Source of the DNA: Bugula neritina
Taxonomy: Eukaryota > Bryozoa > Gymnolaemata > Cheilostomatida > Bugulidae
DNA length: 64,000 nt
Assembly: GCA_964035545.1 (NCBI GenBank)
Contig: OZ037770.1
Coordinates: 3,825,662 to 3,889,661, forward strand
Reading direction: 5' to 3'
The notes under the pieces are model-generated. The model did not search any database, was not told the origin of the DNA, and worked only from the letters and a program-made list of their open reading frames with translations. Below are positions 3,798 through 60,680 of this stretch, one piece after another. Made by a program: the position numbers and the translations under genes. The stretch's first letter is position 1; the number at the start of each line of letters is the position of its first letter.

Positions 3798-3808
3798 GCC
3801 CCATCAGG

Positions 3809-4252
3809 TCAGCGGCTCAAACCATCCGCATTGCTGTGTCTCCTGCCCGGTCGATGTTCGATCGGGTAGGAGAACTCAGCTAGGATTTCGAGCCACCGGG
3901 CGACCTGACTGGACGGATCTGCTCTCTTGCACAAGCAGATCAGGTAGGCATGATTCGTACGCAGCCGAAACTTCCTTCCATAAAGGTATGATCTGAAGTG
4001 CTTCAGTGACTTGATTACTGCCAGCAACTCCTGGCGAGTAGTGCAGTAATTTTGTTCAGTGGGTGAGAGAGACTTGCTGTAGTAAGCTACTACTACTTCT
4101 CGGCCTTCCTGCATTTGAAACAGCACAGCGCCAACATTCTGGTCAGTGGCGTCTGTGTCGAGGATGTACTCCAGAGTGGGGTCTGGGTAGGCCAAGATTG
4201 GTGCCGTCAGTCGGCAACCCTTGAGGCGGTCGAACGCTCCTTGTTTGACCAA
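3809..4252 (-). pseudogene. Gypsy RNase H domain
   Basis: Seen: ILDTDATDQNVGAVL (first catalytic Asp), TRQELLAVIKSLKHFRSYL (Glu), RTNHAYL (normally RTDH) and NADGLSR (last Asp). The Asp-to-Asn change in RTNH hits a catalytic position. The ORF overlaps the RT ORF in another frame (4143-4252), showing a frameshift between RT and RNase H. Confidence 0.88.
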
Positions 4253-5453: not shown

Positions 5454-5459
5454 CTACCC

Positions 5460-5940
5460 TGAGTCCAGAGATCCGGTTATCATTCACTCTGCAGTGAATA
5501 GTAGCCGGGAGCGGCCTGGTTTGGTACAGTTTCGCACCACCTGCACGCCTCCCACTAAGGGGTGGCCAAACTTGTCGACACAGGCAAGTTCTCGCCCGGA
5601 CATCTCCATCGCAGACTTGCTAAAGTCGATGTGACATCCATGCCGTTTCAGGAATGGCATCCCGAGGATGGCGTCCTCCTTGAGCTGACTGACGAGAAAC
5701 GTCTCTTGGATCGTTTGATCTTGGACGCGTCCCGTCAGCTCAATTATACCGTAGAAGGGAATGCACGACCCGTCAGATAGGGTGCCACACTACCCCTCGT
5801 ACGGTTCCATCTTGCCCCTGACCCTAGCGCTGAGGGTGTCGAAGAGTTGGCGACTTATGAGGTTCGTGGTAAAGCCCGAATCAAGTAGGAAAGTAACAGC
5901 TCTGCACTCTATTTTGCCGGGCGAGAAATAGCTGTTCTAA
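5460..5940 (-). pseudogene. Gypsy aspartic protease
   Basis: Minus-strand reading contains LLDSGFTTNLIS, the DSG active-site loop of retropepsins, and about 80 residues later AILGMPFL, the hydrophobic-hydrophobic-G flap-side motif. At least one in-frame TAG lies between them (about 5790) and a TGA follows the domain near 5485. This would normally be part of a gag-pol reading. Confidence 0.75.
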
Positions 5941-6254
5941 TGGGGCTGTACCTGTACTCGCTCTATTCGTGCTTTACTCTCGCAGGGAGCACCTCCCTCG
6001 CTTTAGGTCGCGAAGGAGGTGGTTTTGGATGGTGGTAGTTTGTCCTTGGAGGTGGGGAGGCTAAGTTTCCAGTTGCCTGTGCTGGTTCTATTCCGGATTC
6101 TCAGGCTGGAAGCCCGTCGAATCGATTGTGGAGTGGCATGGAGAAGGTAACAGCGGGGCGGAGCCCCTTACCCGTCCGCCGTGGCTGTTGCCACTCTTGG
6201 TTGTCGGCACGCGGTACCCGTCTGGGTAACCTACGTTTCCTCTTCTCTGGGGGT

Positions 6255-7199
6255 TCATCGCCGGCCCGCAGGAGGCGGGACCATCTGCGAGCCGCGGTAG
6301 TTTAACCCTGGAGCTAGGAGAGGGCAATATCTGCGGAAATGTCCTTGGTTTCCACAGTCCCAGCAAAGACTAACTGTTTCCCCCGGTGGCGGCGATGGCG
6401 GCTGCAGAGGCTCATAGGCGGTACCTACTAGAGTTTGATGTGTCAGTGTTGCTATCAATTTAGCCAACATGTCGGTCAGTTTGGCGACCTTCAATGCGGC
6501 AGTTAACTGTGCCACGGCAGCGGTCGCGGAGGGTTTCGCCTCCCGCTCGGCTGCCGTGTTCGTGGGCTCTATCTCCACTTGGCGGGAGTTCCCGCGATTT
6601 TTATGCATCTGGTTTGCCAAGAGATGAGCTTCCCCTTCTGCCAGAGCACTTTCAACTGTGGTAACTCTCTTAGCTAGAAATTAGTGGTAGAGTCCCAAGT
6701 CGTAGACAGACTGTACAAAAGCGTCAAGAGTATACTTCGCACGGTTAGCTTGAGGCAGATCGCTATACGCAATCTGTGCCAGCTTCATGACTGTGGTGGT
6801 ATGTTCTTGTAGCCAGGTGTGGGGATCACGCTGCAGCCTTTGTAGATGGGCCCGGGCATCAATAACAGAGATGCTGAAGCGGGCCCGCAGAGAAGGAAAG
6901 ATACTATCGATGTCTGGGCCTAACTCATAGGGCTTGGCCTAGTTCATCAATGACATTCTGAGCTTCAGCAGGGCCACCCTAGGTGGCCACTGGGCGACGT
7001 CGATTACGCCGCTAAACTCTTGAATGAATTGCTTCACTTCTTCTTCGCCCGTGAATGTGGGCGCCTTCAACCGCTAGCGGTCCTTGTTCAGCTCCCGAGG
7101 AACTCTTCGCTCTTCTACCACATGATTCACAGAAATAACATCATCTTTACGCTCACCTTCTACTGGCTGTGGTTGCGTTCCAGCGTTTTCACTCTCCAT
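6255..7199 (-). pseudogene. Gypsy gag with CCHC zinc knuckle
   Basis: An ATG at 7199 opens a minus-strand reading that runs to TGA near 6255, interrupted by three TAG codons. Near its end lies CWDCGNQGHFRRYC, a canonical CX2CX4HX4C nucleocapsid knuckle. The middle resembles retrotransposon gag (THTWLQEH, ALAEGEAHLLANQ). The stops are consistent with C-to-T changes of CAG codons. Confidence 0.8.
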
Positions 7200-7213
7200 C
7201 TTGGATGTGCACT

Positions 7214-7231
7214 ATCTCACTGCTGCCACCA
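7214..7231 (-). other. Candidate primer-binding site of the Gypsy element
   Basis: Minus strand TGGTGGCAGCAGTGAGAT begins with TGG, as a site complementary to a tRNA CCA end must. It sits 15 bp upstream of the gag ATG and one base after a possible LTR end ATAACA. I cannot name the tRNA. Confidence 0.5.
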
Positions 7232-7232
7232 C

Positions 7233-7452
7233 TGTTATAATTTTCAGTTTTGGGTTGTGTGCAATCCAGAGAGTCTATTTATTTACTAGAGAACTTCACC
7301 AGGATAAGTCGAGTTAATATGAGTATATTTCACACACAAGAATACATCACAAAAACTATACAAATACATTCAGTCAATTGCTACGTTCATACAATTCAAC
7401 ACTCTATTCTTAACTAAATAACTGCGGGATACTAAAATATGGAAAATCCACA
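7233..7452 (-). repeat. Candidate 5' LTR of the Gypsy element
   Basis: A stretch of about 220 bp with minus-strand ends TGTGG and AACA and an AATAAA-like signal inside. It sits next to the candidate primer-binding site. No second copy remains because the element's other end is gone, so the outer boundary is a guess. Confidence 0.3.
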
Positions 7453-8268: not shown

Positions 8269-9612
8269 TGTCTTGATGGATGTTATTTTCTTTTTATATG
8301 TTAGTTTTTTTGGATGAACACCTTTTGTAAAAATTGCCTTAGATAACTTTGTTTTTATATATATAAAAGTTTTTTTTATAGTATGCCTCTCTTCCACTTT
8401 AGATTTAGCTGGAAGTAGACTCCCTGCTGGAGGGGGCGGTGTAGTGGCCGAGGAAGCATACTAGTTATACACATGCATTGAAGCCAATCATATAGAAGCA
8501 CATGATTACCCCCGGCGAAGCAGAATGCTTCCGGACAGTTTTTATATAGTTACAGTTGAAAGTAGTATGTGAAGATAGATAGTAGACCAGTGAATGTGTT
8601 ATAGAATTTGAAAGTATTTCTATTATTACTTGTATTAATATAAAAGCAAACAATCTAACATAATATAATTGAATAAAATTTATTGATAAAATATGAAGAG
8701 CAAACTTTGATATACTAGCAAGCTAATTGATATAATAATGTTGATAACATGGAAGTTAAAACATGTGCTTGAGACTTAACCTGGTCAGAACTTAGTGTCA
8801 CATCAAAATAGAAAGAATAATAAACTTGGCTAAATAAAAGGTGTGATATAAATAGGGGTTGTTGGTGTTTAAAAAGTCATAAAATCAACTGTTACAATAT
8901 ATTGATAATAAATATTATAACGTGACATTCTATATACTGTAGGTATAATTAAGACATAGTAGTTAAAAGTCTTTGCTAGATAATATGGCTGTCAAGTAAT
9001 AATAAACAATAGTCTCACATACCCACTCTATGTTTCAAGTCAAGAATCTTCAATAATGGAATTAAGCTTTGTGCAGCTTCAAATTGGAGTTGTGTACCGA
9101 GTACTTAAGAGTTTTCTTCTCTACTAAGCCCATCGAAGCCAGGAAACAGGTAAAGTCTTTTACGGAGAGGAAGAGTCTTCCAGATTACAATCAAATTCCT
9201 GCTTCTCTCTGAATCTTCATCTGGATACAGTTTCTTAACTAGTTTAGTCTGTACCTGTAGAGTAAGTAATGACTAGTAAGATTGTTCATCAATTCACTAT
9301 TATAGCTGTGATAAAAGGTAAACTTCAGCTTTTAGAATGTTGTATCCCACTTGTAACAAATATGAACAGCAAGCACTTTGGGATTTGTCTACCGCAGTCA
9401 TATCATATAGCATTCAGCAGTACAGTGGCACTAGTATATTTGCAAACTACAAGAACATATTGACAAGGAAGAGAAACTATAATCAATATAGTGAGCCAAT
9501 ATATGCTAAAGGAATTGTAGGAGCAAAAACTACAAGTTAAACTAGAGAAAACTAGGAAAGACATTCTGTTACTAAAACTATAGTGGATATTTTTTTTAAA
9601 GGACAATAGGGT

Positions 9613-11186
9613 TTAAACATAGAAATGAATAAAATGATATGATGAGAAATAATATTTTAATTTCTTAAATAAAAGTTGAACTAGCCAAAAAGGTATTGTG
9701 ATTTTTAAACTTTTAAAGTTGAAATAGTTTGTGATTTGTAAAGCCACCTGCTTGAAAATGGTGTAGAGATCACGGTGACAGGCATGTTTGTAGATTGAAG
9801 ATACTAGAGCTCTAATCAGAGGAGAGCCATACTCAGGATGTCTCTTTGATGCTAAAATACAATTAAGTGCAACCAAAATCTAGGTCTATAGCCAGACCAA
9901 GTTTAACAGGTTTTAGTTATGGCATAGGCCTATCATATTAAAAATCTCCAAGTTCTGGAACACATTTTACTCTTTTCAGTTTAGAAGTTATTAGAATCAA
10001 AGCCTTTACAAAATGCGGGGATGATACAAAATCGGTAAACCACATCTTATACAAGGTACAACAGCTCAGACAAACTTATAGCCAATCACTGTCTCTTATT
10101 GTACTTACAGCAGATGTTACTCTTCAGAACAAGAAGATTATCAACATCCAGTCTTGCCATACATTCCTCTACTTTATATTCTGGTGGTGAGACAGGTCTG
10201 ATGGGTCTTATTACACTGGGTGTTTCAGGATATACAATATCATCATCAGATTCAGAATGTGTAGAAGAGACAGCTTCAGTTTCTTCTCCTTGAGCTGCTG
10301 CAAGACCTGATCTGTCTGAATTCACCTCAATGTCTGCTGCAAAACACATCTAGTTATCAGGGAAGTAGGATAGATCAAAACATCCATTTTAGCAACAAAG
10401 TCGCCTAACCAATTTTATATGACACATTTCTGAAGGTATTCCATATTTTTTGTAAAAAATCATCTTAATGAAACAAAGAAGTTTTGACTACTGTGTGACC
10501 ACTCAAATAACTGTGTCCGTTTTTATTACAAAACAATATTCACCTTCGCTGCAAGCTTCTATGATGACAACTGTAGGTTTAGGCTTTAAACTTAAAGGAG
10601 CGAGCATATCATAGAAGTCTGTAAGGTTGACCTTCTCAAGGTCAGTTCCATAGATACAGTTATCTTCTCCACCATGAGTCATAATAATCAGTATTTGACA
10701 ACCCAAGCCATTGTTTTTTTCTCCTCTTATCTCAGACTTCACAGCAGACATCATTTCCTACAAATTTGGAAATAACTATAATTATGTTGAATAATTGATA
10801 CAAGGTTATGATAACTAAATAAAAGAAATTTTTCCAACTAGCAAAAAACAATATTTTGACCAGCAATAAACATGATTTGGGTTTTTTATTCAGGCCATAT
10901 TTGAAACATTGATAAACTAAATAGTTAGTGACTGCGTCAATTTTTAAAACAAGTGTCAGGTTTCATATAGATAAACTGATTGAATACTATTGCTTTCAGT
11001 CTAACAATATTATACCTCTGCCTTTAAGTCTGTGTGTGTCTCAACATCAAACTTGAGAGATCTCAACATGACAGACACGTTCTCAACATCAGCATCTGAA
11101 CCTTCCCTGCATAAGTCTGGTCTTTCAACAAAGTTCTTGTTTCTTATTATCAGAGCTTTTCCTCTCTCTCTGGTCATACTGAACAC
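9613..11186 (-). CDS. Caspase (C14) domain exons
   Basis: Four exons: 11186-11016, 10757-10544, 10336-10109, 9851-9613. The first begins VFSMTRERGKALIIRNKNF, the classic caspase start, then REGSDADVENVSVML with the first S1-pocket Arg. The catalytic His is in MTHGGEDNCIYGTD (codon 10676-10674). The catalytic Cys is in IIEACSE (codon 10553-10551). The third exon encodes a Ser/Asp/Pro-rich inter-subunit linker and the start of p10. The last gives SKRHPEYGSPLIRAL (second S1 Arg retained) and DLYTIFKQVALQITNYF. Compared with QACxG, the site reads EACSE, so Gln and Gly are replaced. The last 25 residues do not look like caspase. It could be a separate gene, but the phase-0 link to the linker exon argues against that. 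Confidence 0.85.
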
Positions 11187-14100
11187 CTGCATGGATACAA
11201 TTTTCAGACAATCGCATACAGTAGTGACATACCAGTATGTATGTCTACAGCATATTGTGAAGCACACCAAGAAAAATAATTACAATTATTCTAGAGCACA
11301 AGATGCCATTTGGAGCTTCAAAGTTGGAAGTCTCATAGAAAGCAGTATAACACTCTCTTGCAAAACCAATTTTTTATTTTTATGCCAGGTTTTAAGTTCA
11401 TTACTTTTTAGCTAAGTTGAATAAAAAAATTTTGTTTAAAAGATCCATTGTCAGCTTTACCAACAAAACATTTAAATATTCAATTAAGTGTTAATTGGTA
11501 TTTTGGCACGAGTCATTCAGGATATGATTTAATGAGGTTACAAAATACAGGTTATTACGCTGCATGATTATACTTTATTGAAAATTGCTTCTATTTAACG
11601 TTAAGTTTTTACAAAACAAGCATGTATTTGCAAGGCTGTAAAACTAAATAAGGACAATTTATGGCTATAATAAAATTTGTTTGCATATAACACTTTACTG
11701 GCCTTAAAATAGACCATGGTCTAATTTATGTAAACATAATTTTTAAAACCAAACTATCCGCAAAACATTCACTTAGCATACAGATGCAATTGATTGCAAT
11801 AGAACATTATGGTAAATTCAACTTTTAGCTTAAAGGTCACAAAAGAAATCATACTATAAAATGTTTCTCCACTAGGATTACTCTATGGTCATAGGAGTTA
11901 CTAGGAAATCTCAACCCTTTATCCCAAGCAATTCCTCTGATCTCTAATTACAACTCCTTCAGCCTTCAGGTTCTCTTAGCCTCTGACTTCCCTATAAGGA
12001 GTACTTCTACTGCTACTACTACTCTTCACTAAAGTCAAAGGAGCCCACAAAAAATTGCCCCACCTCCACCGGAATTCAAATCGCAGAAGTCTAGCTTTCA
12101 AGCATGCAAGGCAGGATAAACATCACACCACAAGGACTAATAAGTAATATCCACACAACAGATGCCTCCTAACCATGACAACCAATTGAACCCAAACTAA
12201 TAAAAGCAGAGTGGAAACTATTATGGCTAAACCAGAACCTACAAGTATAGTAAAATGATGGAATTTTAAAATGTGCATGCATTCGGATTAATTGATTTTT
12301 GAATCTAATTGAACAACTGCACGTGACAATCTAGTAAAAGGAGTTTTTGGAAACTGAAATACTCTAATGGGTGGAGAAAGGAGAGCTGCTATAACTTGTG
12401 TTCATCAACTGATAAATTCACCTTTTCAGTGTTTGAAAAGAGTTGTTTTATCCTTGAGTTGGTTGTTGGCTTTAGTTCCAGTTGTACCAACTTCATGTCT
12501 TCTTCATTCTCTTCATCAGGGTACAGATTGTCATCATCTTCAGAGAGATTACTCAGATCTTCATCATTTAACTCATCTACGATCACATGATTGGACAGAT
12601 TATTGCCAAAATTTGAAACCACAAACTGCACATCTTGCCTAGACAGGAGTAGAAGCAATTAATTTTAAAAGTCACAATTAGATATGATTTGTAGGGAAAT
12701 GTAGGGCAACATTTGCAAAGCCTATAATTTTACCAATACTGCTGGTACAAAAAGTAAGTTCTGTCTAAAGATTTTACCATTTGATTTGTTCTGCTCTCTT
12801 CGAAGTTTGAGCTCAGAAAGGAACTTCTTCAAATGAATTGTTTCTGCTTCAGAAAAAGTCTCACCTGAACAATACAGACAGAATTAGTAACATTAAAACT
12901 AGATGAAAGGCATAATTAGAAGAATATGTTATATAATCAAAAGCGTATGTTTCAAGTTTGCACATTTATAAGTTAGACTGAAAGTTTATTAAAGTAACTG
13001 CATGTGTAGTTTGCTAACATCCATCTGTTATTGAAATTCATTAATGTCTAGAAAAAAATATTAGATATGATTTGTTAGTGTAAAAAAAATATTTGAAAAC
13101 AGCTTAGAAAGAAAATCAAAAATGAATCATAATTATGTGTAGACATACATGGATGAATTAAAGCACTGGGTATCGGTTCATCATTACACAATATCTTTGA
13201 AGATCCATGACACTTCTTGACATCTGGTGGCAGTTGGCTTTTTAAAGAACGGAGACACCATTTAGGATGCAGGAACCTTTTAGGGCAAGAAACCCCCAGT
13301 ATGATGCAGTGAGCACAGATGCAGGCAGTAACTGGTCGACTAGCAGTCCAAGTTTCCATGACATGTTTGAGAATGTTGTTTGTGGCTGAAATGAGTTTCT
13401 TCCACATCTTGGAAATGTGAGGAGCATCGGATGAAACATAGAGTAAGACTCTTCTAGAATCATAGTCATGTGTCAGCTGTGTGTATATTTCATCTTGATA
13501 GACATTAGCTCCATTTCTCTTCACCTTCATTGTAGCAAACTCTTTAGAAAACAGTTCTAGCAAACCAACTGTCATTTGATGGTAGACATGCTGCGGCAAA
13601 GCCAGACCCTTGAACTTTACCTCGGTGTGAAGGACCATATCCTCTGGTGAGGTGTATGACACACTGTAATGTTCCTTAGCAAACTGAGGGGTTATAAAGT
13701 AGGGTTCATGGACATCATTTTCCAAAGGGCCATACAACAAACGGAATGTTCTAAGCAAGCAAACAGCAATCTCAACATCATGACAGCTTTTAAATAAAGT
13801 TTCCTTTGCAATCAAATATGTTAGAAGAGATTTCATCATTAAGCCAGTTGTTTTGAAGCAATTTACAGACTCTTCAAATTCTTCTGTTTCAATTCTCAAC
13901 CCTTCTCTGGAAATGCATGGTTGAAACTGGTCAACTCTCCTCTGCCAAATATTTGGATCATGATGATACAAGACACAGAGTAGTTTGGTTACTTCTGTGA
14001 TCTTGTGAAATATGTACGGTTTGAGTGCTTCAATATTCTTATACCACAAGACTTTACCGCAGTCATGCATGTATGTGAGAATAGTATCCAGCTGATCTTG

Positions 14101-17100
14101 CTCCACCTCAAAGCCTTCTTTTGTCAATTCCAACAGAATAAACCTGAAAGAGCTAAATGCTCCGCTTAAAGACAAAACTTTCTCATTCACTTCTTCCCAG
14201 ATCAGTGGCAAAAGCTTAACAAAGTGCTGAATGCTTAGAAGAAGAGAGCTTTTTATTGTTTCAAATTCAGCATACTTGTCTTCTTTTCCAATCTGATAAA
14301 TATCTTCACTAGCAAAAACCTTTCCATTTGATGAGTTGAAATGCTGAATTTTCGAGAAATCTCCATCTGAACTTTTCTCTTCATTAAGAACTTCTTTGCA
14401 AAGCTGTTCAGATATGCTAAGAAAACTTTCTTTAAGCTGTTGAAACTGTTCACTCTGAAACTTATCCTTGTGTGTGAAGACAAGCTTAGGTGGGCCAAGA
14501 GTAGGATGGGCCAGATAGAGGTGAGACATGAAGTCAAAGGCCAACTTTCTGACAGCCTCTTTCTTTGTAAACTCATTTGAAATCTGATCATACTGCTCCA
14601 TGTTGACTACAACTACTGGTACACAATTCTGCCTCAGTGTTAAATGGTATGTGATATGGTAGACCTCCTGGCCTCCCATATCTATGAGACGAAGAATTGT
14701 ACCGTCCACCTCCACCTCTTCCACATTAAACACCTTTGTAGTCTCATCATACTCTGCATTAGGACTTCTGTCAGTCAGAACTCTTTTCCTGTCAGTGTTC
14801 TGTAATGTTCTGATTAGACTGGTCTTACCTGCCATGGTGTTTCCCACCACGACTATTGTAGCAAATGGAAAATTTCTACCAGCACCTTTAGCCAAGTCTG
14901 TGTAGTATTGTCGTACAGCATCTAATCCCCTCTCACAAACTTCTAGTGGAGGAGATGTAAAGGCATAGCAACCCTGTGTTATGAGGAGACTAAGATGTGT
15001 TAGCTGTAGTATCTCAGGATTCAAAGATGTCATGGATCTGTTGTAGGATATATTCAGTATGTACAGATTACTCAATGTACACACTGAAGATGGGAGACTG
15101 GTGAATTTATTCTCTGATATGTTTAGTATCTGTAACTTCTGTAGACTCTGTAACCTAACAATACATTATAGTTCTATGGTCAGCACAAACTAGAGGTAAG
15201 TGTGATCTACTTGTTGTAATAAAGATACAATGATAGTGAAAAATTTATAATAGAACTCAGAATGTAGTATGAAATGGCAGTGAATACAGTGAGCTTATTA
15301 TGTAAAACTCTTATTGTTTAGAGTAGTACAGTAGATAATTGTTATTCTAGAATTTGCCCTTATTGATTTCGTCACAATTGTCAAGTATTATTTTCAAGCT
15401 CTACAATTAATATTTCGAAACATTTACAGCACTACAACTATGAATAATTATTTGGTCAAAAATAATAAATAAGTACCTTATTATTGTCACTTTAGCACAA
15501 TTCCTAACACTACCATAAACAATGCTGTTCTATATAGCATGTAGTTGATTATAACTGCTTACACTGATATTTTATTAGATATGTATTATAATGAAAATTA
15601 CAAAACTAGATAACTAAATTCTGCAGGATATACAGTATCTATAGTATTCATTTGGCAGAAAAACGCCAATTTTTGACTTAGGTTCACAATCCCAGATAAA
15701 GCTTTTTTCTCTCCTGATTATTCAAATATAGGGTCCAAGTAAATGTTTTTAGGTGGGTGTGGACTTTTTATCCTTGAGAATTTTGAGAAATTTAAGATGG
15801 GTGCTAGGCACCAGACGATTCTATATAATTTAAATGTACCTACCCATCGGGGAGCTAAATTTAAGGTTCCAATGATTTGAAATCTTTAGAAATTAAACTG
15901 CCTTTATCACGTTCATTATTAAGTAATAGGCAAATTATACCCAAGAGGAACTAGGCAAAATCTTAATCACTCATTTTTTAAAGTTTAACCTAACCTTACT
16001 GGTCTAAATTTATGAAAATTTACTATATGGGGTGATATTTTTATGCTGATCACAAATATGTCAACCAAATAAAGCTGAAGAAAGTTCTGAAAAGTAAAAA
16101 TACAACGTCTTTGTCATATATGAGCTAAATAGCAATTTATTTCAAATTAGCATGCCTATCAAAAAGGTTTGTTGAGCTGCCAATTTGATAGTTATTTTCA
16201 CTTTTAAAACTTTAGCTTTGTTTTTTAACATTAGAAAATGGGTCAAAAAACCTTGATAAAACAACACTATGGCTTCTTAACATAATTCAATTGCTTTAAT
16301 ATTAACACATCATTTATCTAAATATTGATATTTTTGCTTTCAAAAGCTACTTCTACAATCAGCATATTTGACTTTTTCTCTAAAAAAATTGTAAACAAAT
16401 TTTATGAATGAGAATCTATTTCATGCTGGGGGAAGTAATACATCTATTAGAACAGTGGTTCTTTACATTTTTTGATACCAATCTCTTTTTATAAACATTT
16501 ACTATTATTTTCTCCCCGTTTAATGAGCTATGTTGGGTGCACTGGAACACCAATTGCTGAAACTGATTTAGTAGAAGTAGTTCTTTCTACGTTTGATGGT
16601 CTCCCAAAAATTCCAAAGAGAAAAAATTTCCTCAGAATGTGCTAGGTCTGAGAATATAGATGAAAGAGCTGTGAAGAAGTCAGTTTTTGATGAAAGTGTA
16701 ATCACTAGCATGGAAGACCTTGAAAAGATGTTGACTAATATTTCAGAGAGCTCAAGAACAGCAAAAACTGTGGGTCATGCGCTGTATTATACCAATTTTT
16801 ACCATCAACACTTGCATCATTATAGCTGATGGGGAAGAAGACTGGGCCTCACACCTAGCAAGGGAAAAGGAAATGTACATATCTGCGTAGCATGGAGGTC
16901 ATACCACAAGCTGCAAGGATTGAATTCTCAGCTGGTAACCACACAGTGCATCATAAACACGGCCAGCTGGGCGGCATCTGGTCAGACATGATCATTGAGG
17001 TGACCTTTGTGAGATTTGGTCACAGCAAAGGGAAATCATTGGCATTACTACTAAACCTGAATCTCTCAAGGTGTGGGTGTACAGTACTTCTGCATGCAAC

Positions 17101-20100
17101 AAGATATAGTAAGGGCTCAGTGACATCAAAGATGAGTCTTAAATACATGCTTCCACTACTCATAAAGATGATATGCAATTCAATCTGATTCAAAAGACAG
17201 AGAGTGTGTCAAAAGGAAGATTGAACTCTGCAATGACCCTCTTAAAGAAGGATGCCACCCAGTTGCTCTTGTCAATATTGAAACAGAGAAAGTCATCAGT
17301 TATTTAACAATTATTATTGACAATATTTTCGCTATAGGTAAAGCATTTATGCAAGAATTTAAAGTGAACTGGTCAGAGGGGTTAAATCATTCTTTCTCAT
17401 CTAAAGTTAAAGCAATGATATCATCTCAAAACATATTAAGGTTTCTAATACCACTGTGCATGATACTGAAGTCATATATGCCCGAGCCATTGCACTCAAG
17501 CACACTAAGAATTTGGACGCTGACTCATTAATGGCTCATAAACTTGCAGCATTGCCACCTTCTACATTCAAGGAAGCATGAAAAATAAGAGAAGCTAGGA
17601 CCAAGTCAATTCTCAGAAAATCTGTGAAATTTTGAATTTTCAGAACAATCCGCGACAAAATGATAAGAAAATTTCAACCAAGCTGGAGATTCTCTTATAC
17701 AGAACGGCAATTAAAACTACACTAATGTATGGAAATCAGATATGGCCACTGACTCAATGTCACAAATTCTGAGTGTACATATACCTATAGACTTACCGGG
17801 TTTTTCCTAATGATTATACAGGAATGTTCATAAGTGTTCTAGACTGATCAAAGAGATGGGTCATTGTTCATTGTTGTTGTTTTCATTAGTCATGTTAACT
17901 ACTGCCCAGCAATGTAAACAAGGTGTTGCGCAATAATTGCAAAATAACCATAGAAATTCCAATGTTTTGTTTGTTTTGATTTTCTATCTTAATAGTATTG
18001 GCATGTGGAGAATGTTTTCTACTAGAATTTTCTATACCGGAATGCTTGAGAATGTTCTAGAGTTTTTTTTGTTTACTATAGATACTGAGGCAGTTGTGCT
18101 TACAAATCAGTTCATTTTTATAAGTTCATCTGTGCATATCTTACTGGAGGAATAAAGTCTACTTATATTCACAACTCTATTTACTCTCAACTGGATTAGG
18201 AAGCTGTATGCTAATTGTCTAAACACTTCTGACTGCCAGACTTTTTGAACTCGTCACACTGCTACCAACAGTTTTGTGACACTCAAAGACAAAAAGCAAG
18301 ATAAGTGCAACTGAGATGAGAATGCTTTGACACATTTACAATATAGATTGGGACGAATATGTAACAAACAATAGTATAAGGGAGGAAGCCAAAATAGAAG
18401 CCATCGTAATAGACATGAGGAGGAGACCTCTTCAATGGTATGAAAATGTGTGCATAAGAGATAGGGAAGAAGATAATTTAATGGGGGCTGAAATGAAGAT
18501 ACAGAAAAAGAGAAAAAGAGGGAAGCCAAAGAAAAAGGTTAATGGATACAGTGAAGGATGACATACTGAAATGTGGCCTCCCAGATAAAGATGTTGACCA
18601 CAGAATCAGATGACACTCTCTGATAGCGATTGGTGCCCTGCAAAACCACCACCCATCTTGAACCACGACGTACTAGGTGAGAAAGTCTGAGACAAAACCC
18701 TATAATAGACAATTTGCTGCTTTTCCATGGCCTTTCAGGGTGTGATACAGTAGCGATAATGTAACATGTTGGAAAAAGAGTCATATTAAATGTCTTGGTC
18801 CAAAGAAGATGTGATTTCGTGACATTAGTGCTTCTTTTCAGGATGACTGTTCATACAAGCTATCAGGTTTATGCTATGTTGCTACAATTATGCAAAGTGC
18901 TCTTCCATTACATCTACAAGACAAAAGGCCTTGGAAAACCAAGGTCTGAAATGCTATTTGAGATGTGCCTTTAACTTATGTACTTTGCCTCCTACAGATG
19001 AAGCTATTGGACAATGTCACCAGAGCACACCTTCATATGAAACTGCAGCATTAAACCCCTTAAATAACATTGGTGGACAAAAGAGGATCTAATAGAATCT
19101 CTTTTCCCAAAAGGAATAGGAAATGATGTGCTTACATGCACCAGACAGTATTATGAAGTGGATCATTTTACTTAATTTGGTGTACACTCGATGACTAGTT
19201 TTTGGCAATTTTTTACAATTTAGCTGCTAATGTATATAAATTTTCTGCCTTAAACTAATAAAATTTTAACAAATAAAACTTAAAAATTAAGGCTTTTCAA
19301 TTATGCATGATTTTCAATGTTTTTCCTGATCTATTAGTACATTGAGATATTATATGGACAGTGATGGTTCACAAACATATATTCACCTTGTATGACAATG
19401 ACGCAGCACTTAAACGTTGCAAAACCTTCTCCCAGTCTTTTATTGCTATGTATAGTTAGAATCAGCAAATTCTATTGCCCCATATAGTAAGTTTTCATGA
19501 ATTTTGAGCAAACTTTAAAATGTTTGATCATAATCTGCTGATGTGTACTAAATAAATTAAAATGACCAAAATTAATTGAATACTCCTGTGGAAGCCACCA
19601 ATTATGCAAAACAACAAGATATGGCTGTTCTAGTACATCTATCCCATGCACAGAGTTCTGCCCTTGTGAAGCAATAACAGGAGTGTGCTGCAATGAACTA
19701 GCATTTCTAACATATGTTAATGATGGAAAAAAAGGTGTTCAATATGAACATGAGCGAAAGTTAGTCACATCTGTATGAGTATATATATGTTCTAGTTTAA
19801 CTTTAGCTGAGCAATATCCTTCTGTATCTTTTTCACTTTCTATTCACTCACAATAAGCAATGTTTTTCTTCATATATCTGACCAAATAATTATTTAAAAA
19901 CCTTGTATCACTTCTCTGTACCATATGTGATGTTTTATTGAAGCAATGACGATTTTTAAGCTGGGCAACATGTCTCTTGGCTCTTTTCTTTCATCTTTTT
20001 TTACTGGCAGAGCGCATATTTATTCCAAAATTGCAAATCAATTTGAACCATCAAAAAATTTTGTTTTTGCAACATATAATAATTATTATATACTTTATGC

Positions 20101-23100
20101 CTACAAAATTACGATTTTTTCATAATTGGCGGCCATCTTAGATTTCTCAAAATGCTCAAGGATGGCTGGTTCACACCCACCTGAAAACATTCACTTGGAC
20201 CTTCAAGATAAAAGATCAAGGGAGAAAAAAACTTTATCCGAGATTGCTATATAATACAGTTATAATCAAATTATAATTAGAGAAACAAAGCTATCCTGTA
20301 TAAGTCTGCATGAAGTACTAAAAAAATATGTCGGGGAAAACACACTACTCTGTATCTTTTGCTCTACCATCATAATGTAATTTAACTGTGTAACTATTTT
20401 GCTGAAACAAATGAGTTAACAAATATCTTAAATGGTAAGTCTATAGTGACACACAAACCTCTCAGGTAGATCAGATAATTTACAGTTCCCCATATTCAAC
20501 TCTTTGAGTGATGTGAGTGATGACACAACTTCTGGTACTGTGTTGACAGGATTCCATCCTATGTGTAGTTTCTCTAACTGAGTCAGCTGACATAGACTGT
20601 AATATAAAGTGAATGATGAATGTAGACTGACTTATACATTTTATAATTGCAAAAATTGCTATAACTACCATATAATTATGACGGATACGACAACTACATG
20701 TACCATCACCTTGTTTCTTCACTACACCTTTATTCAACTTATCATGACACTGGACTACTATATAGGTGAAAATATATTAATGTACCATAATGGTATACAA
20801 CTATTTAGGGAGCAGCCGTGGTCTAGGGGTTAGAGCGTTTGCCTAGTAAACACGAAGGTCATGGGTTTGAGCCCAGACAAAGGCCATTAGATGATAAAAG
20901 GAAAAGCATCCAGTCATAATTGCTCCTGTGCCTCATTTAAACAAGTCCTTAGCCCGATTTATACAGGGATAGTGACTATAAATTTGCGTGAGAAAAAAAT
21001 GGTATACAACTATTTAATTATTATACTCAGTAAACACAAGTAAACTAGATATAATGACTTATAATCAATTACACTTTTTAACAGCGTAAGGATATACTAT
21101 AATACAATGATCGACATACCTTAAAACTATGGGGTTTTCACGTACATTATTGCAAACCATTACATACGTCATATATAGATGACTTCAAAAAAATACATTT
21201 TTTATTCTCCCACTTTATGTTGGCACACAATAATGTTAGTTGGTAAGTATATAAAGATGCCAATTATTGAATGTTTTTAAACAACTCATTAACTGTAATT
21301 GTAAAGTTAGCACTGAACATAATTTAATTCAAGCAGTAAAAGTAACATAGTGTAATGAATACGTAATAGTTAATCAAGCATTCAGCGTTGCGTTTAACAT
21401 AACGTTTCACTCAAATAGGCTATCACATCACTTGATTCCCGCCTACGCAGCGACTGCTAGTTGTAAATTCACTAATTAGATTGCAGCACGCCCTCGCCCA
21501 TTGGCTGTGGCTTTAAGCTTTGGCAGCCCGGATGTTTCAGTGCAGACATTGAACCTACAGCTATAGTAGAATAGTAGCTGCTAGCGATGCAATTTCATCA
21601 CATCGATAACAATCAATTTTAAATGATATAATTCATAAAATATAAATTAATTTAAATTGGAATTAACTTAAAGAAGCACGGGTTAGTTTTGTCTTTCAGT
21701 ATTTGTAATAATTTGAGGCTTTCCTTAAGTATTTTTATCTATTTTTAGCTAGATAAGAATAACTATTTGGTTTATTAAACATGTTTATAAGTTTGACAAT
21801 TTTTAGAATGCTAGTGCGGTCAGTGTATGATAGAATGTATGGCTATGTGTTTACTTTTTAATAGATTTCTCATAAAATTACTACTCTAAAGGCAGGCTCT
21901 CTAGTGATTGATCAGTTTGGCACTAGATAGTATAAATATTCTAATTGGCAGTTAAAGCCTTATTTTTACACTTACATGCAGTATTTTAATGCAGCTACTA
22001 ATTCAAGTCAACATTGAATATAAGTTTTAATCCCTGTCTTTGAGCTATACATTCATTTTTACTAATTGTGTCAACATTTGTCTAATTGCAGTTATCACCA
22101 AATGTCATTTTTATTATAGTTTGATATTTTTTAGTAGACCTGTAATACCGTTTCATAGAAACAAACTCACCCTAGCTAGCCACTAAAAGAAGGCAAAAGG
22201 TGATTAATTCAAGATCTGTATACATGTTTGAATATTTTGCAACTTCATGAATAATTTTCTGTTTGTTTTATTTTAAAAACATGTTATAATTGCATATATT
22301 AATAACCTACTTTTACAGTTTTTTACGGCAGTTGGAATAAGTAAAAATAAAATACTAACACCAACACCATGCAGTACAACTCATTTATAGTTAGTGGTGA
22401 TGCTACAGTAAGTGACACAAACCTCTCAGGAAGAGTAGATAATCCACAGCTCATCAGATTCAACTCTTTAAGTGACGTGAGTGATGACACAACTTCTGGT
22501 ACTGTGTAGAGAGGATTATCTTCTATGTCTAGCTTCTCTAACTGAGTCAGCTGGCATAAACTGTAATATAAAGTGAATGATATATATTCAGTGTGCACTA
22601 CCATAATATTTTATATTATATTAACCTATTGTCTTAAACCAGGTAAAATTATATATACACTATATGCAACTTAACTACCAAACAACTTATTGTAGCATAT
22701 AGTACATGTTGCAAAGCATGAAAATGTAGCAGTTTATTATTATAGCATAAAAGTATTCAATTATTGTAGTCATTGAATGCTAAAAAACTACAACTAACTG
22801 CTAACTATTAATTACACTTTCATATCACAAGAATATAATATAATGGCATACTTTAAAATTATGTTATTTTTACAATACTATGAACTATTACATATAATAT
22901 ATTCCTTTAAAAAATGCATTTCATGTTTCTCAATTATATAATGACATACTGTAATACTACTTGGTAAGCATAATATGAAGATGTCAAATATTGAATGCAT
23001 GTTTAAAAAAACAAAAACAATGACACAAACCTCTTAGGTAGATTAGATAATTCACAGCTCCTCATATTCAACTCTTTAAGTGATGTGAGAGATGACACAA

Positions 23101-24065
23101 CTTCTGGTACTGTGTCGAGAGGATTCCATCCTATCTCTAGTTTCTCTAACTGAGTCAGCTGACATAAACTGTAATATATAGTGAATGGTATATGTAGTCT
23201 ACTGTATCATATGATGACATATTCTGTAGCTACTCAGTTATAATGTAAATTATGTAGTAAACAATTTTGTTGAGACAGGGCACAACAGAAAGATTATATT
23301 ATGGCATGTTATAGGTGTAATGGATGCCCTGTGTAGAGTTGACTGATTAGATTTGTTTATAAGGTTAGCCTGTTAGTTTAGTTATAGATAAAGGCTACTC
23401 TACAATGTAATGCTATATGGCATGACTGTAATAAATAGTATACAATATTATAGCTGATCTGACATAAATTAGACCCAATTTGTCATTTTGATAAATCTGT
23501 TATTTTTGGATTTAGCGTCATATAATATATATGTATGCCTCCTACTTGTACATGTATGTGATATAGTACTATGCTACACATATACTGTTTAGTATGTTAC
23601 CTTTGGTACTCAACTATATGAAACACGCTTATATTGATGATATAATATCCATAACAGTAAAAACAGTTTTGTACTGTTTATAAGTTCTACAACTGTTTTG
23701 GCTTGTGTAGATACAATGTTTTGCTTATTACTATAGGTTTATATACTGCATGATAATATTATAAGTAAGAATGTGAGTGAAGACAGTTAACACAACTAAA
23801 TTTATTTGACAGCTATACCGCAGAAATACTTACTTGTCTAGACTTGCTCTGTCAGTCAGGTTAGAAACACATAGACACAGGGCTTTACCAGCAATCTCTC
23901 CAATGTTGTTTGGAATTCTCCCTTCCAGTTTGAGATATGTGATATGACAACTTCCAACTTCACGTTTTACCTCAGCAGTATTGTATGATTTGGTAATAGC
24001 ATACTGTATATCTGACCAGTCTACGAGAGACTGACCAGAATGTCTGAACCAAATTCTTATATTCT
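9613..24065 (-). CDS. LRR-Roc-COR-caspase protein (module A plus effector half)
   Basis: Minus-strand exons: 24065-23834 (N-terminal IWFRHSG domain), then LRR exons 23168-23031, 22560-22423 and 20596-20459. Next come 15154-13149 (LRR, Roc, COR), 12864-12778 and 12633-12422 (acidic linker), then 11186-11016, 10757-10544, 10336-10109 and 9851-9613 (caspase). All borders are GT-AG and every phase fits: 1 in, 2 through the LRRs, 1 after COR, 0 into the caspase, 1 to the end. This gives 1266 residues and a stop with no frameshift. Three LRR exons give six repeats, and the large exon adds more before Roc. The protein should be an intracellular multidomain protease. The true N-terminus is not seen: the first exon has a phase-1 acceptor and no Met. 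It may continue from modules B and C. The only doubtful junction is the acceptor at 12634. Confidence 0.82.
10551..10553 (-). other. Catalytic cysteine codon of the caspase
   Basis: TGC inside IIEACSE, six bases before the exon end at 10544. The donor GAAG/GTGAAT follows. The next acceptor is a NAGNAG pair (10339-10334), so two forms differing by one residue next to the active site are possible. Confidence 0.75.
12422..12864 (-). CDS. Acidic linker between COR and caspase (two exons)
   Basis: Exon 12864-12778 encodes ETFSEAETIHLKKFLSELKL, probably helical. It joins the COR exon by completing a split Cys codon. Exon 12633-12422 encodes VVSNFGNNLSNHVIVDEL and then a strongly acidic run (LSEDDDNLYPDEENEED) and ends NTEK at AAG/GTGAAT in phase 0, matching the caspase exon. 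The acceptor AAG at 12635-12634 keeps the frame; the stronger-looking TAG five bases earlier would break it. No death domain or CARD is evident. The Asp-rich run could be a processing site. Confidence 0.65.
13149..15154 (-). CDS. LRR end, Roc GTPase and COR domain exon
   Basis: A 2006-bp exon, phase 2 in and phase 1 out. It opens with leucine-rich repeats ([32 protein letters not shown]). A short helix ([17 protein letters not shown]) leads into Roc. The P-loop GNTMAGKT is at 14844-14821. The G3 motif DMGGQE begins at 14682. The G4 motif THKD lies near 14475, as in Roc rather than Ras NKxD. COR follows with LTYMHDCGKVLWYKNIEALKPYIF. The end has CICAHCIILG and PIPSALIHP, a Cys/His tail seen in other metazoan Roc-COR proteins. 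The usual donor CAT/GTATGT lies at 13149. All GTPase motifs are intact, so it should bind and hydrolyse GTP. Confidence 0.9.
16510..17600 (+). pseudogene. Relic of a transposon ORF (uncharacterised CXC-type family), N-terminal and middle parts
   Basis: Broken + strand reading includes VEVVLSTFDGLPKIPKRKNF, then PQAARIEFSAGNHTVHHKHG, GGIWSDMIIEVTFVRFGHSKG and GCHPVALVNIETEK. These phrases resemble an uncharacterised family repeated many times in cnidarian and other invertebrate genomes and ending in a Cys-rich CXC tail. That recollection is from memory only. Several stops and frameshifts make it non-functional. Confidence 0.5.
17690..18665 (+). pseudogene. LINE reverse-transcriptase C-terminal relic
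   Basis: The frame reads LEILLYRTAIKTTLMYGNQIW at 17680-17755, the strand following the RT active site in many LINEs. Then MRRRPLQWYENVCIRDREED and KIQKKRKRGKPKKKV appear at 18410-18540, the basic tail that closes such ORFs. Stops and about 600 bp of unrelated DNA lie between. It is nested in the inverted-repeat element. Confidence 0.6.
18960..19200 (+). pseudogene. Relic of the same CXC-type transposon ORF, C-terminal part
   Basis: Reads TLPPTDEAIGQCHQ, then in a shifted frame an RAHLHMKLQH-like segment and ALNPLNNIGG. This matches the segment that precedes the Cys-rich tail in the family named for 16510-17600. The Cys-rich tail itself is not recognisable. Confidence 0.4.
20789..20807. repeat. 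Left target-site duplication of the SINE
   Basis: AATGGTATACAACTATTTA, repeated without a mismatch at 20998-21016. Confidence 0.93.
20808..20997 (+). mobile_element. tRNA-derived SINE
   Basis: A 190-bp insertion. The head has an A box TGGTCTAGGGG at about 20819 that fits TRGYNNARNGG, and a B box GGTTTGAGCCC at about 20864 (consensus GGTTCGANNCC with one change), spaced as in a tRNA. A tRNA-unrelated body follows and the element ends in A7. A perfect 19-bp target duplication flanks it, as expected for LINE-mediated insertion. Good preservation points to a young copy. It is not a functional tRNA because the acceptor and anticodon arms do not close. Confidence 0.92.
20998..21016. repeat. Right target-site duplication of the SINE
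   Basis: Second copy of AATGGTATACAACTATTTA, directly after the SINE A-tail. Confidence 0.93.
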
Positions 24066-24890
24066 CTGTAACATTATACAGTGACAGTGTAATTACTACA
24101 CAGTGCCAGCAGGTGTTGCCAGGCAGCTTTAGGTTTACGAAATAAATAGATCACTGATTCCTGAAAACAACCGTTTTATTTAAAATCTTTGAAATTATGC
24201 TGCTTCGGTTTCAATAAAAGTCCCCCCGAGTAATACTAGCATATTATATTCTTTGCTATACAATTTTAAAAAAATAGTTTGAATGTTGATTTAAAGCAGC
24301 CAAAATTAAGCCGTGTTAGTATTTTATATTCACTAATAATTGGTCCAAATACCAACATAAGTTAAAACTTTCTATATCTGACACTGCGTACTCCCTATAC
24401 CCTATCAGTTACACAGATGACAGCTGTACAGGATGATCATAGATATACTCGAACTAGCGTAGTTAGAGCACTTTCTGAATTGTGGAATCTAGAGCTATAT
24501 AAGTATTTCAATGTTTCTCATATTTCAACTATAGAAAAAAGCATACCAATATAGAAAGGTTTCTGAAAAGTCTTGTCACAATAACATTCTTGTCAATTTA
24601 GATGAAACATTTGCTAGTTTTGCTCAAATAAAAAGAAAATTTATGCATTGAAAACCAATATAACTGATTGCATTCGAAATAATATTCAAATGAATGCCAA
24701 GTATACTGCATATAAATACAAATAGTGCGATAACATTGGCATACACCATGTGCTACTCTCCTTCCCTCAATCGCCTTTGGACCATGTAGTTTACTTACTG
24801 TTCTACAAACAAACCGGCTACATATCTCTATCCTTAACTGACATTTGCAGGCATGCTGCACCATTATTGTAACTAATGAAAGATTTTTAC
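24066..24890. repeat. Junction segment between modules A and B
   Basis: Non-coding DNA nearly identical to 47870-48712 and, in its first 420 bp, to 60681-61140. Shared landmarks include AACTTTCTATATCTGACACTG and a T-rich ATCTTTGAAATTATGCTG stretch. It would act as the intron joining two modules, or as the intergenic spacer if the modules are separate genes. Confidence 0.85.
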
Positions 24891-25949
24891 CTGCACCTCC
24901 AGCCAAATCTGTGTAGTATTGTCGTACAGCATATAATCCTCTTTCGCAGACTTCTAGTGGAGGAGATGTAAAGGCATAGCAACCCTGTGTTATGAGAAGA
25001 CTAAGATGTGTTAGCTGTAGTATCTCAGGGTTCAAAGATGTCATGGATCTGTTGCTGGATATATTCAGTGTGTGCAGATTACTCAATGTACACACTAAAG
25101 ATGGGAGACTAGTGAAGTCATTAAATGATATGTCTAGTATCTGTAACTTCTGTAGACTCTGTAACCTAACGATACATTATAAGTGTATAGTCAGCAAACT
25201 AGAGGTAAGAGAGATCTACTAGCTGTCATGAATATACAAAGATATTAAAGTAATAGAAGAGATAGTAAGAAGTAGCAGTGACTACAGTGTGATTATTATA
25301 TAACACCCTAACTATTTGGAGTAGTACAATAGAAAGGTGATATTTTAGAATTTGCTCTTTGCCCTTTGCCCCATGCATGCATGAGGTATTACAGAAGATA
25401 TGTCAGATAAAACACAATACTCTATACTATATTACTTTACATTCATAATGAATAGTTTGACTGTGTGACTGTTTTGCTGAAATGAATGAGTTCACAAATA
25501 TCTTGAACAGTAATTCTATTGTTACAGACAGACCTCTCAGGTAGATCAAATAATTTACAGCCCCTCATACACAACTCTTTAAGTGATGTGAGTGATGGGA
25601 CCACCTTTGGTACTGTGTTGAGAAGATTCCAATTTGTTTCTAGTCTCTCTAACTGAGTCAACTGACATAGACTGTAAGGTAAAGTATATGATATATGTAG
25701 TTTGACTTAGACAGAGGATAATTATAAGAGTTGCTAAAACTACAAAAAATTATGAGAGATAAGATAACTACTATATCAAGTTGATTGTCTCTTCACAACA
25801 GTTCTATATTCACCTTATCATGACACTTGACTAATATGTGAATATATAACAGTGTATTATAATAGAGTACAAGAATTCAACACTTAGTAAATACTAGTAA
25901 ATTAGAAATGACTGCAATAACTGTTAATCACGTTTTTTATAGCATAGGA

Positions 25950-26029
<80 letters not shown>

Positions 26030-26072
26030 ATATATATATGTATATATATGTATATATAAATGTATATATATA

Positions 26073-26126
<54 letters not shown>

Positions 26127-26269
26127 TACATATAGACATATATACATATATACATATATACATTTATACATATATACATATATACATATATACATATATA
26201 CATATATACATATATACATATATACATATATACATATATACATATATACATATATACATATATACATAT

Positions 26270-26349
<80 letters not shown>

Positions 26350-29300
26350 CTATATATATATACATATGTGAGTGTGCGTGCGTGTGCACGTGCATGTGTC
26401 TGTAACTTTAATAAATTTAATTTCATATTTTTCAATGACATACCATAATAATACTTGGTAAGCATATAGAGTTGTCAAAGATTGAATGTTTTAAACAATA
26501 CAAAACCTGTGACACAAACCTCTCAGGTAGAGTAGATAATTTACAGCTCTCCATATCCAACTCTTTAAGTGATGTGAGTGATGACACAACATTTGGTACT
26601 GTGTTGAGAGGATTCCATTCTATGTTTAGTTTCTCTAACTGAGTCAGCTGACATAGACTGTAATATAAAGTGTGTGATTTATATGTAGTCTGCATTAATA
26701 TATTATTTTATACAATAATCACATTTGGTTTTCAACCAGGTAAAACTATATACAACCTTACTACCAAGCAACTTATTATAGCATTGTACATGCAGAGCAT
26801 GAGAAGTTAACAGTTTATTATAATAGTATACAAGTATTCAATTATTATATATACTCAGTGTGTGAATACTAATCAACTATACAACTGCTTACTATTATTT
26901 ACATTTTTATAGCATAAGAATATATAAAGACATACGTTAAATTCGGTTATTTTCACAATATTACGGACCATATTTCATATAGAAATGACAAAAATTGCAT
27001 TTCACATAATATTTCTTCAATTATATAATGACATGCCCTAATTATACTTGGCAAGGAACTATTTTAGGGTTTTAACCTGTGACAAACAAACCTCTTAGGT
27101 AGAGTAGATAATTTACAGCTCCCCATATCCAACTTTTTAAGTGATGTGAGTGATGAGACAACATCTGGTACTGTGTTTAGAGGATTCCTTCCTATGTCTA
27201 GTTTCTCTAGCTGAGTCAGCTGACACAGACTGTAATATAAAGTGTATGATTCATATGTAGTCTGCATTACTATAATATTTTATACTATATTCACATTTTG
27301 TTTTCAACCAGGTAAAACTATATACAACTTAATTACCAAGCAACTTATTGTAGCATTGTACATATGCAGAGTATGAGAAGTTAACAGTTTAATATAATAG
27401 TATACAAGTATTCAATTATTATATATACTCAGTGTGTGAATACTAATCAACTATACAACTGCTAACTATCATTTACATTTTCATTGCACAAGAATTTATA
27501 ATGGCATAATTCAAAATTATGTTATTTTCACAATAATACAGACCAAATTTCATATATAATTCAAAACATTTGCATTTCACATATTTTTCAATTATATAGT
27601 TATACAAACTAATAATACTTGGAAGGAACTATTTTAGGATTTCAAGTATTAAATGTTTCAAACAATACAAAAACTGTGACAAACAAACCTCTCAGGTAGA
27701 GTGGATAATTCACATCTCTTCATATTCAACTCTTTGAGTGATGTGAGTGATGACACAACTTCTGGTACTCTGTTGAGAGGATTCCAGCCTATGTCTAGTT
27801 TCTCTAACTGAGTCAGCTGACACAGACTGTAATACAAAGTGTGTAATATATGTAGTCTACTGTATCATATAATGACATATTCTGTACTCTGCTATATAAT
27901 GTAAATTACGTAGCAAACAATTTTGTTGAGACAGGGTACAGCAAAAAAAAGCTATTATCTCATGCTGTAGGTGTAATGGGTGCCCTGTGTAGAATTGAGT
28001 GATTAGATGTATTTGTATAAAGACATCCTGTAAGTTTAGTAGATAAGGGCTACATCTACAATGTATTGCTAATATATAGTATGATTTATAATAATAAATG
28101 GTTTACTTTGTTATAGCTAATCTGACACAAATTAGCATGTATTTAATATTCCGAAAATCTTGTATTTTTAAGTATATGGCTACATATAATATGCTTATAT
28201 ATATTATGTGTTACAAATATAAACCTTCTGTATAATCCTACATGTATACATGTACTACATATAATATGTTACTTCTGTATTCAACTACATAAAACATATG
28301 TATTAATTTAAGATAGCGTATGTAACACTACAGACAGTTTCCCACTGTCTAATTTCTACAACTCGTTCAGCTGGTAGAGATACAGTGTTATACATATTAC
28401 TATAGCTTTCAGTATATATTTTCCTAGAATGTTGTTTAGAGACATAAAAAAACTGCCTATGCACAACATACTTTGCATCTGTTTAGTATCTCGTAATTAG
28501 ACATAAAAAAATCAAAGCCAATTATAAGGTAAAAGACCATAATACTGTACTATCATTGGATAGTTCTTCATCAATAAACAGGTAGTCGCCAGTGGTGGAT
28601 ATGAACCCCTCCTAGATGTTTCTCGTATTTCTTCCTCAAAAAACATTTTCATTAAGCCAAAAAGAAATAACAATACACCTCTTTAGTTGACACTTTTTAA
28701 TTTCTGACTGATATTTCACCTTATTTCCAATTATAATTAACTTTTAACCGGCACTTTTCTTTGTAGTAATTCCTACCCTTTAGACTGTGTACTTTGAAAT
28801 GAGTCTGTTTTACTTGTTACATAAAGTATAGTTGCACTGGCTACAGGTTGACACAAAAGCAAGCCTATCTTGATAAAATCATGCGCAATTGTAGAAACTA
28901 TCGAGGAGTTTGTTCCTCATAATTAGAAATTGACAAATTATTTTTAATCCGTTTAAAAGCATCTGGTTAGGGAAGCATATGCCGTGTTCAATTTGTTATT
29001 CTAGCATTAACAATAACAGAATGCAATAATTATAAGTTTATGAAAGTAATTTGTATTCTTTCTAATTACAAATATAATATTTTAGTATAATATATTGTAA
29101 ATTTATAAGGCTTGCATTAGGAATAACGCAGCTAAAACATCATTTTCCTTAAAGCCTTAAAAATATATAAGTATAACATAATACACTATGCCAATAAACT
29201 TATTAAAGTACCAAGCAAGCTTAGCTAGTTTAAGAAAAATTACACTAGGTAAATTACCATTATTTATAGAATGCTTGCTGATATTAGCTTTTGATGTAAT

Positions 29301-48712: not shown

Positions 48713-60680
<11,968 letters not shown>

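Follow-up and report, generated by a model that had tools for sequence, protein, structure and literature searches.

Do a sensor made of leucine-rich repeats (LRRs), a Roc-COR GTPase module and a caspase form one polypeptide, or are they the products of two adjacent genes? The question is raised by a stretch of 64,000 nucleotides (hereafter the window) from contig OZ037770.1, positions 3,825,662–3,889,661 of the forward strand, in assembly GCA_964035545.1 of Bugula neritina, a species known for its bacterial symbiont. The initial annotation of this DNA proposed a fusion and took the host for an early animal, which has to be corrected: B. neritina is a cheilostome bryozoan, that is a lophotrochozoan. 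In the known animal pathways a sensor reaches its caspase via death-fold adaptors. The data described below argue that at this locus sensor, GTPase and protease are encoded in one chain, and that the locus has many relatives in the same genome.

Exon and domain structure of the window gene

Twelve exons on the minus strand, from window position 24065 to 9105, can be joined into a single open frame of 1252 codons that ends with TAA, and all introns (11/11) have GT-AG borders. The spliced product contains, in this order, LRRs, Roc, COR, an acidic linker and a caspase with its p20 and p10 parts. The same succession of LRR-Roc-COR, two linker exons and caspase exons on one strand, all bordered by GT-AG and readable in a single frame, had been proposed initially and was borne out, as were the junctions 13149/12864 and 12422/11186. 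The phases are compatible, as was claimed, while ten junctions and 1266 codons gave way to 11 junctions and 1252 codons, and the end of the gene had to be moved from 9613, since the exon 9851–9748 donates to a further p10 exon with the TAA.

The first exon found, X0 (23834–24065), contributes an N-terminal piece without any Pfam match; it is internal and starts at a splice acceptor. X0-like exons are present elsewhere in the window and in locus L045, and the divergent X0 of locus L038 likewise starts at an acceptor. Three LRR exons of 138 bp follow (23031–23168, with two LRRs, 22423–22560 and 20459–20596), each with phase 2 on its two sides; gain or loss of such an exon would leave the frame intact. 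The large exon (13149–15154) carries the last LRRs, the Roc GTPase with P-loop GNTMAGKTSL, DMGGQE and THKD, and COR. It is connected with the caspase by linker exon 1 (12778–12864, phase 1 in and phase 1 out) and the acidic linker exon 2 (12422–12576, SEDDDNLYPDEENEED, phase 1 in and phase 0 out), which starts at 12576 with an acceptor in register with the paralogues. The caspase is composed of the first p20 exon (11016–11186; VFSMTRERGKALII..., CREGSDADV), the second p20 exon (10544–10757) with MTHGG and IIEACSE, which we take to contain the catalytic His and Cys, an exon with a long p20-p10 linker and the start of p10 (10109–10336; DVDNLLVLKSN), a p10 exon (9748–9851; SKRHPEYGSPLIRALVSSIYKHACHRDLYTIFKQ) and the last p10 exon (9105–9254), which offers the acceptor for the preceding donor and bears the stop codon.

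Pfam profiles run on the spliced product gave LRR_14 (E 1.7e-25), Roc (31.2 bits, cut-off 27) and Peptidase_C14 (87.5 bits, cut-off 21.4, E 1.4e-24), the last one along profile positions 1–218 of 233, i.e. over both p20 and p10. Of the three profiles suggested initially for a check, Roc and Peptidase_C14 were matched above their cut-offs, while COR-A with 13.6 bits fell below its cut-off of 35.3, a point against the proposed architecture. Roc was matched at E≤0.01 in all 19 family exons aligned, and the columns of P-loop G-K and S, DxGG and THxD are invariant across the 19 rows, as expected for a Roc GTPase with its G motifs. COR-A was matched at the same threshold in 14 of these 19 exons (the window exon is one of the 19 and not of the 14), and in some family exons genome-wide it exceeds the Pfam cut-off. 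Solved structures of LRRK2, LRRK1 and C. tepidum Roco were matched by the large exon across its LRR-Roc border, and in the predicted fold of this exon the alignment with LRRK1/2 and C. tepidum Roco covers COR completely, up to the exon end. The fold prediction places COR directly after Roc, as in the Roco tandem. Among solved structures the p20 part was closest to ancestral caspase-3/6/7 (E 7.4e-17, p20 only) and also matched caspase-3.

The Pfam scan of the spliced product gave no match to a protein kinase, which is expected after COR in LRRK proteins (Roco group 2), and none to NACHT or NB-ARC, the NTPase being here Roc; neither CARD nor DED prodomain was matched in the same product, which lacks the 5′ end of the gene. 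The layout of DAPK1 (Roco group 3), with N-terminal kinase, C-terminal death domain and no LRR, is not found either: LRRs are present and the C-terminus is a caspase.

Conservation of the junction between COR and caspase

Twenty paralogous loci (L025–L044) were fetched and compared together with the window copy, 21 loci in all; the presence of exons was judged by tblastn at E≤1, and spliced protein-to-DNA alignment was run on all 21 with the window protein as a template. Linker exon 1 was found in 17 loci (not in L039, L040, L042, L043), linker exon 2 in 20 (not in L040), the first p20 exon in 20 (not in L044) and the second in all 21. In 20/21 loci the phase at the end of the COR exon is 1, with L039 as an exception; phase 0 is seen at the end of linker 2 and at the start of the caspase in 20/21 loci each, L037 deviating in both. 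Shuffling the letters of the linker lowered the alignment score in all 20 paralogues by 27–316 units relative to the best of three shuffles, the gain being small (27–43) in L039, L040, L042 and L043.

If the frame is continued past the COR donor, a stop follows after 1–39 codons, and past the linker-2 donor after 2–32 codons; these distances vary, and therefore no gene end is conserved at either point. Linker 2 and caspase are separated by an intron of 82 bp in L038, 79 in L041, 97 in L031, 103 in L036 and 104 in L037, and no space is left there for a terminator and a promoter. An AG acceptor precedes the caspase exon in 20/20 loci shown, and the exon opens with (V/I)(F/Y)xM in 19 of them (Ala is first in L026), as is usual ahead of the first strand within caspases. 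Roc-COR relatives from other sources read on through Pro-Cys at the splice point of the window exon in 6/6 close cases and in 7/9 more (not in P0155 and P0162). The TAG after VDEHKL, named initially as the place where a separate first gene might end, was rejected as a gene end: a similar tail exists only in close copies (L025, L026, L028, L030 and partly L029), and it was assigned to an intron.

Several observations weigh against such a fusion. Close relatives in the protein database are single-exon pieces. No fused animal protein was found in this database including nr, which is weak evidence of absence, as the search relied on shared 5-residue words and length limits and scored the best 7991 candidates. 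In-frame stops interrupt 3 of the 21 loci (one in L025, one in L034 and two in L037). Because of these stops, and of the absence of p10 in L037 and L041, some copies must be regarded as decaying or changed. At the level of gene anatomy the fusion in one chain is nevertheless strongly supported by the compared sequences, and we regard it with high confidence.

Size and pairing of the gene family

The genome searched comprised 215.85 Mb in 295 contigs; for the published assembly of this species 216.00 Mb, nine chromosomes and a mitogenome of 15.25 kb are given (PMC11480708). In the genome searched at least 93 LRR-Roc-COR exons were counted, and downstream of at least 88 of these a caspase match lies on the same strand. 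The Roc-COR exon of the window, used as a query, gave 66 matches with 60–100% identity (66 scored of 153 first-look candidates); for 61 of them a caspase match was met on the same strand no more than 12 kb downstream, including 57 within 3 kb. An opposite-strand caspase within 12 kb downstream was not met in the caspase set entered for these 66 exons, and the only two same-strand matches upstream both adjoin a single copy, upstream of which a further Roc-COR copy (C6:13880576) is located. A divergent copy from contig C7, used as a query, added 27 further exons, all 27 with a caspase match 0.9–2.6 kb downstream. Caspase places for the 66 exons were most of those listed by one search plus 17 from another; for the 27 they were picked by hand and provide no measure of wrong orientations. 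All family counts are lower bounds, obtained from the best candidates scored.

Five Roc-COR exons without a caspase within 12 kb (C6:2607458, C1:34940266, C1:34326149, C1:32582549 and C1:34570672) disagree with the pairing, and a second caspase query revealed none beside them among the matches listed. The window copy belongs to a large gene family, clustered for the most part, with about ninety members or more. The one-chain architecture proposed initially is strongly supported by the 20-locus comparison, while the idea of a single protein has to be replaced by that of a family.

Selection along the chain

Nei-Gojobori pN/pS values were pooled over pairs of seven loci (window, L029, L031, L032, L035, L036, L038), picked from the 21 for spread and completeness. 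The ratio was 0.33 for COR, 0.58 and 0.36 for the linker exons, 0.26 and 0.32 for the p20 exons and 0.43 and 0.63 for the p10 exons, whose placement in L031 and L036 is less sure. Most of the chain is under purifying selection; the high values of the last p10 exon (0.63) and of the p20-p10 linker (0.80) count against the proposed receptor.

The repeats behave differently. The window and the searched loci yielded 26 LRR exons, and after removal of two cut by a locus end 24 distinct ones were compared. At eight positions flanking the leucines of the LxLxx strand, which were chosen from the known LRR pattern after the sequences had been seen, pN/pS was 1.67 vs 0.48 for the other 37, and the mean pN of the eight was reached by 3 of 100000 random eight-position sets. 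Ligand-facing strand positions of the LRRs thus have an excess of amino-acid change, a picture typical of diversifying selection on a binding surface.

Proposed mode of action and its alternatives

Judging from the sequences, the gene quite probably encodes a single-chain LRR-Roc-COR-caspase immune receptor, whose caspase would be activated by Roc-COR dimerisation. The LRRs would bind a microbial or self/non-self ligand, and the GTP-regulated Roc-COR would switch between monomer and dimer. The dimer would juxtapose two caspase domains, placed after COR like the kinase in LRRK proteins, and thereby allow proximity activation of the initiator type, with cleavage inside the long Asp/Glu-rich p20-p10 linker. 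The caspase would then trigger cell death or inflammatory processing, and an adaptor with CARD, DED or death domain would not be needed. Roc-COR of Roco proteins is described as shifting between monomer and dimer with the nucleotide state, and as dimerising mainly via COR (PMC6337361). Activation via Roc-COR dimerisation is plausible.

It seems unlikely that the window copy is a pseudogene within a real family, even though its beginning is in doubt. The ATG found in X0 of two other window copies and of L045 is ATA here. Because X0 begins at a splice acceptor and lacks this ATG in the window copy, a start exon should exist farther upstream; comparison of the upstream stretches of several copies revealed duplicated DNA common to neighbours and no shared start exon that could be recognised. 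Both observations count against a functional gene, and degenerate copies lie on its flanks. Against decay stand 1252 open codons, 11 of 11 intact splice sites and the preserved catalytic residues.

Equally doubtful, to our mind, is a function of the fused receptor in allorecognition, development or colony signalling instead of immunity. Bryozoans are colonial and fuse with or reject their neighbours, and variable LRRs would suit self/non-self recognition equally; family size and diversified LRRs suit immunity as well, and the data do not separate the two.

More improbable is that the caspase of the fused protein acts mainly as a binding or scaffold module, a pseudo-caspase, with an output that consists in recruiting other caspases or in signalling. 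What speaks for it, and against a proteolytic receptor, is the replacement of the catalytic Cys by Ser in 5 of 21 loci (L025–L028 and L030), the unusual residue two positions before it and gaps in p10. Human caspases have Gln at this position; here it is absent in 19/21 loci (L042 and L043 keep QACR), and Glu stands there in 16/21. The first p10 exon was detected by tblastn in 19/21 loci and the last one in 16/21 (the window and 15 of the 20 others), neither being matched in L037 and L041; in L025 and L026 the p10 exons are possibly cut off by the end of the fetched stretch. On the other side, catalytic His is kept in all 21 loci and Cys in 16, the window copy with MTHGG and EACSE among them, a p10 exon is present in 19/21, and the p20 exons with pN/pS 0.26–0.32 are under purifying selection. 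The Asp-binding S1 pocket (Arg, Gln, Arg) may correspond to the Arg of CREGSDADV and that of SKRH, as placed by eye, with Glu instead of Gln, and this change may entail a different substrate preference. If the chain is proteolytic, as we suppose, the Cys-to-Ser copies could be regulators, decoys or inactive partners. All five sit near the window copy on contig C6 and are otherwise alike in p20, so that pseudo-caspase members occur beside active-looking ones.

Two adjacent genes, LRR-Roc-COR and then caspase, duplicated as a block and perhaps co-regulated, are very improbable: the conserved Met of VFSM, three codons into the caspase exon, is a possible start for a separate short caspase and an in-frame stop lies 10 codons past linker 2 in the window copy, yet stops after COR or linker are not conserved, linker exons recur with agreeing phases, five loci have only 79–104 bp between linker and caspase, an AG acceptor precedes every caspase exon shown, and YxM before the first strand is normal inside caspases.

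Relation to known receptors

In the NLR inflammasome and the apoptosome an LRR or WD sensor and an oligomerising NTPase (NACHT or NB-ARC) likewise have a caspase as an output, but this caspase is a protein of its own, which CARD or death domains recruit; in Bugula the NTPase is Roc and the caspase belongs to the same chain. LRRK1 and LRRK2 (Roco group 2) share the LRR-Roc-COR core, with a predicted fold similar along the whole large exon, and differ in the C-terminal kinase, at the place of which Bugula has a caspase. The metagenomic protein P0179 also has an open frame that unites caspase with LRR, Roc and COR; its order is LRR-caspase-EAD11-Roc-COR-TIR, so that the caspase, matched with 28.3 bits only, stands before Roc and EAD11 and TIR are present.

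The closest published design is prokaryotic. Bacterial LRR-AP-GTPase(Roc)-COR proteins have a variable C-terminal effector, with caspase among at least 24 domains (PMC8195603), and the initial annotation, which knew of no described LRR-Roc-COR-caspase protein, has to be corrected on this point. These systems resemble the Bugula family in variable N-terminal LRRs, Roc-COR, a C-terminal effector and several paralogues per bacterium (11 in the example of that paper). Their effector varies between paralogues, whereas the roughly ninety copies of B. neritina share a single effector type, a caspase in which a long linker connects p20 and p10, and they have introns and an animal host.

For brown algae 9–47 ROCO genes per species are reported and said to be more than in other organisms reported so far (PMC11378527); the Bugula count is higher. 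According to that paper this is also an expanded LRR-Roc-COR family with phase-2 LRR exons, diversified LRRs and a proposed role as immune receptors, but it has 72-bp LRR exons and LRR-ROC-COR as the sole layout, in contrast to at least 93 Roc-COR exons, 138-bp two-LRR exons and the terminal caspase in Bugula. In animals, Roco proteins are known in combination with domains of immune or death signalling; examples are NG1 of sea anemones, LRR-Roc-COR-TIR (PMC5094078), a protein with TIR in Aplysia (PMC9334734) and those with CARD, death and TIR domains in Trichoplax (PMC4104024). In the parts of these sources available for sea anemones and Trichoplax, such domains are of adaptor type or TIR and no protease is noted. 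A figure legend of a sponge NLR gene paper names CASc and COR (PMC12909245), no such fusion being noted in its accessible part. An animal LRR-Roc-COR-caspase protein was not described in the literature searched. What is new here is a Roc-COR receptor with a caspase effector in an expanded bryozoan family, the Roc-COR-effector principle being already known.

We lean slightly to the broader idea that Bugula, and perhaps bryozoans generally, have a one-chain inflammasome, i.e. about ninety intracellular receptors with diversifying LRRs and a Roc-COR dimer activating the attached caspase. If so, this repertoire would be larger than the brown-algal Roco sets (9–47), which in 2024 were called the largest reported, and would be the animal counterpart, whether inherited or arisen independently, of bacterial immunity by Roc-COR proteins with effectors. 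The union of sensor, G-protein switch and caspase in a single polypeptide would represent a second wiring of immune detection to cell death. Roc-COR would then count as a caspase-activating dimeriser, which bears on Roc-COR of LRRK2 and DAPK1, and a simple system would be offered, where GTP state and dimer state can be read as protease activity. The family also suggests that little-studied lophotrochozoans harbour undescribed large receptor families.

Surroundings of the gene and minor observations

Besides the gene described, the window has parts of at least two further copies, with X0 exons at 60451–60678 and 47640–47867 (minus strand) and LRR exons after them. Two truncated LRR-Roc exons on the minus strand, 48681–48989 and 24859–25167, retain the first 103 residues of the Roc-COR exon with 86 and 85% identity, and both end at SLVTIMV. 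The second of them belongs to a degenerate neighbour copy outside the gene model, with LRR exons at about 27.8, 27.2, 26.7 and 25.7 kb. Since in both cases LRR exons stand before and an X0 exon after, they look like a duplicated truncated block. A long TA-rich simple repeat, noticed by eye, occupies 25900–26400, where it separates LRR exons of the degenerate neighbour. Immediately downstream of the window gene, at about 2900–7400 on the minus strand, a stretch resembling an LTR-retrotransposon was recognised by eye, with gag-, protease-, reverse-transcriptase- and integrase-like reading and in-frame stops.

Search of the assembly also registered several cox1 matches. The cox1 of the mitochondrial contig (15,248 bases), translated with code 5, agrees with that of B. 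neritina at 446 of 447 residues. A second strong one, with nine TGA codons, lies on a nuclear contig (C6:11174072-11175412) and may be a mitochondrial insertion or an assembly join. That on C17 has no TGA codons and its contig is perhaps bacterial, while pieces with many TGA codons on C65 and C196 perhaps originate from mitochondria of other eukaryotes in the sample.

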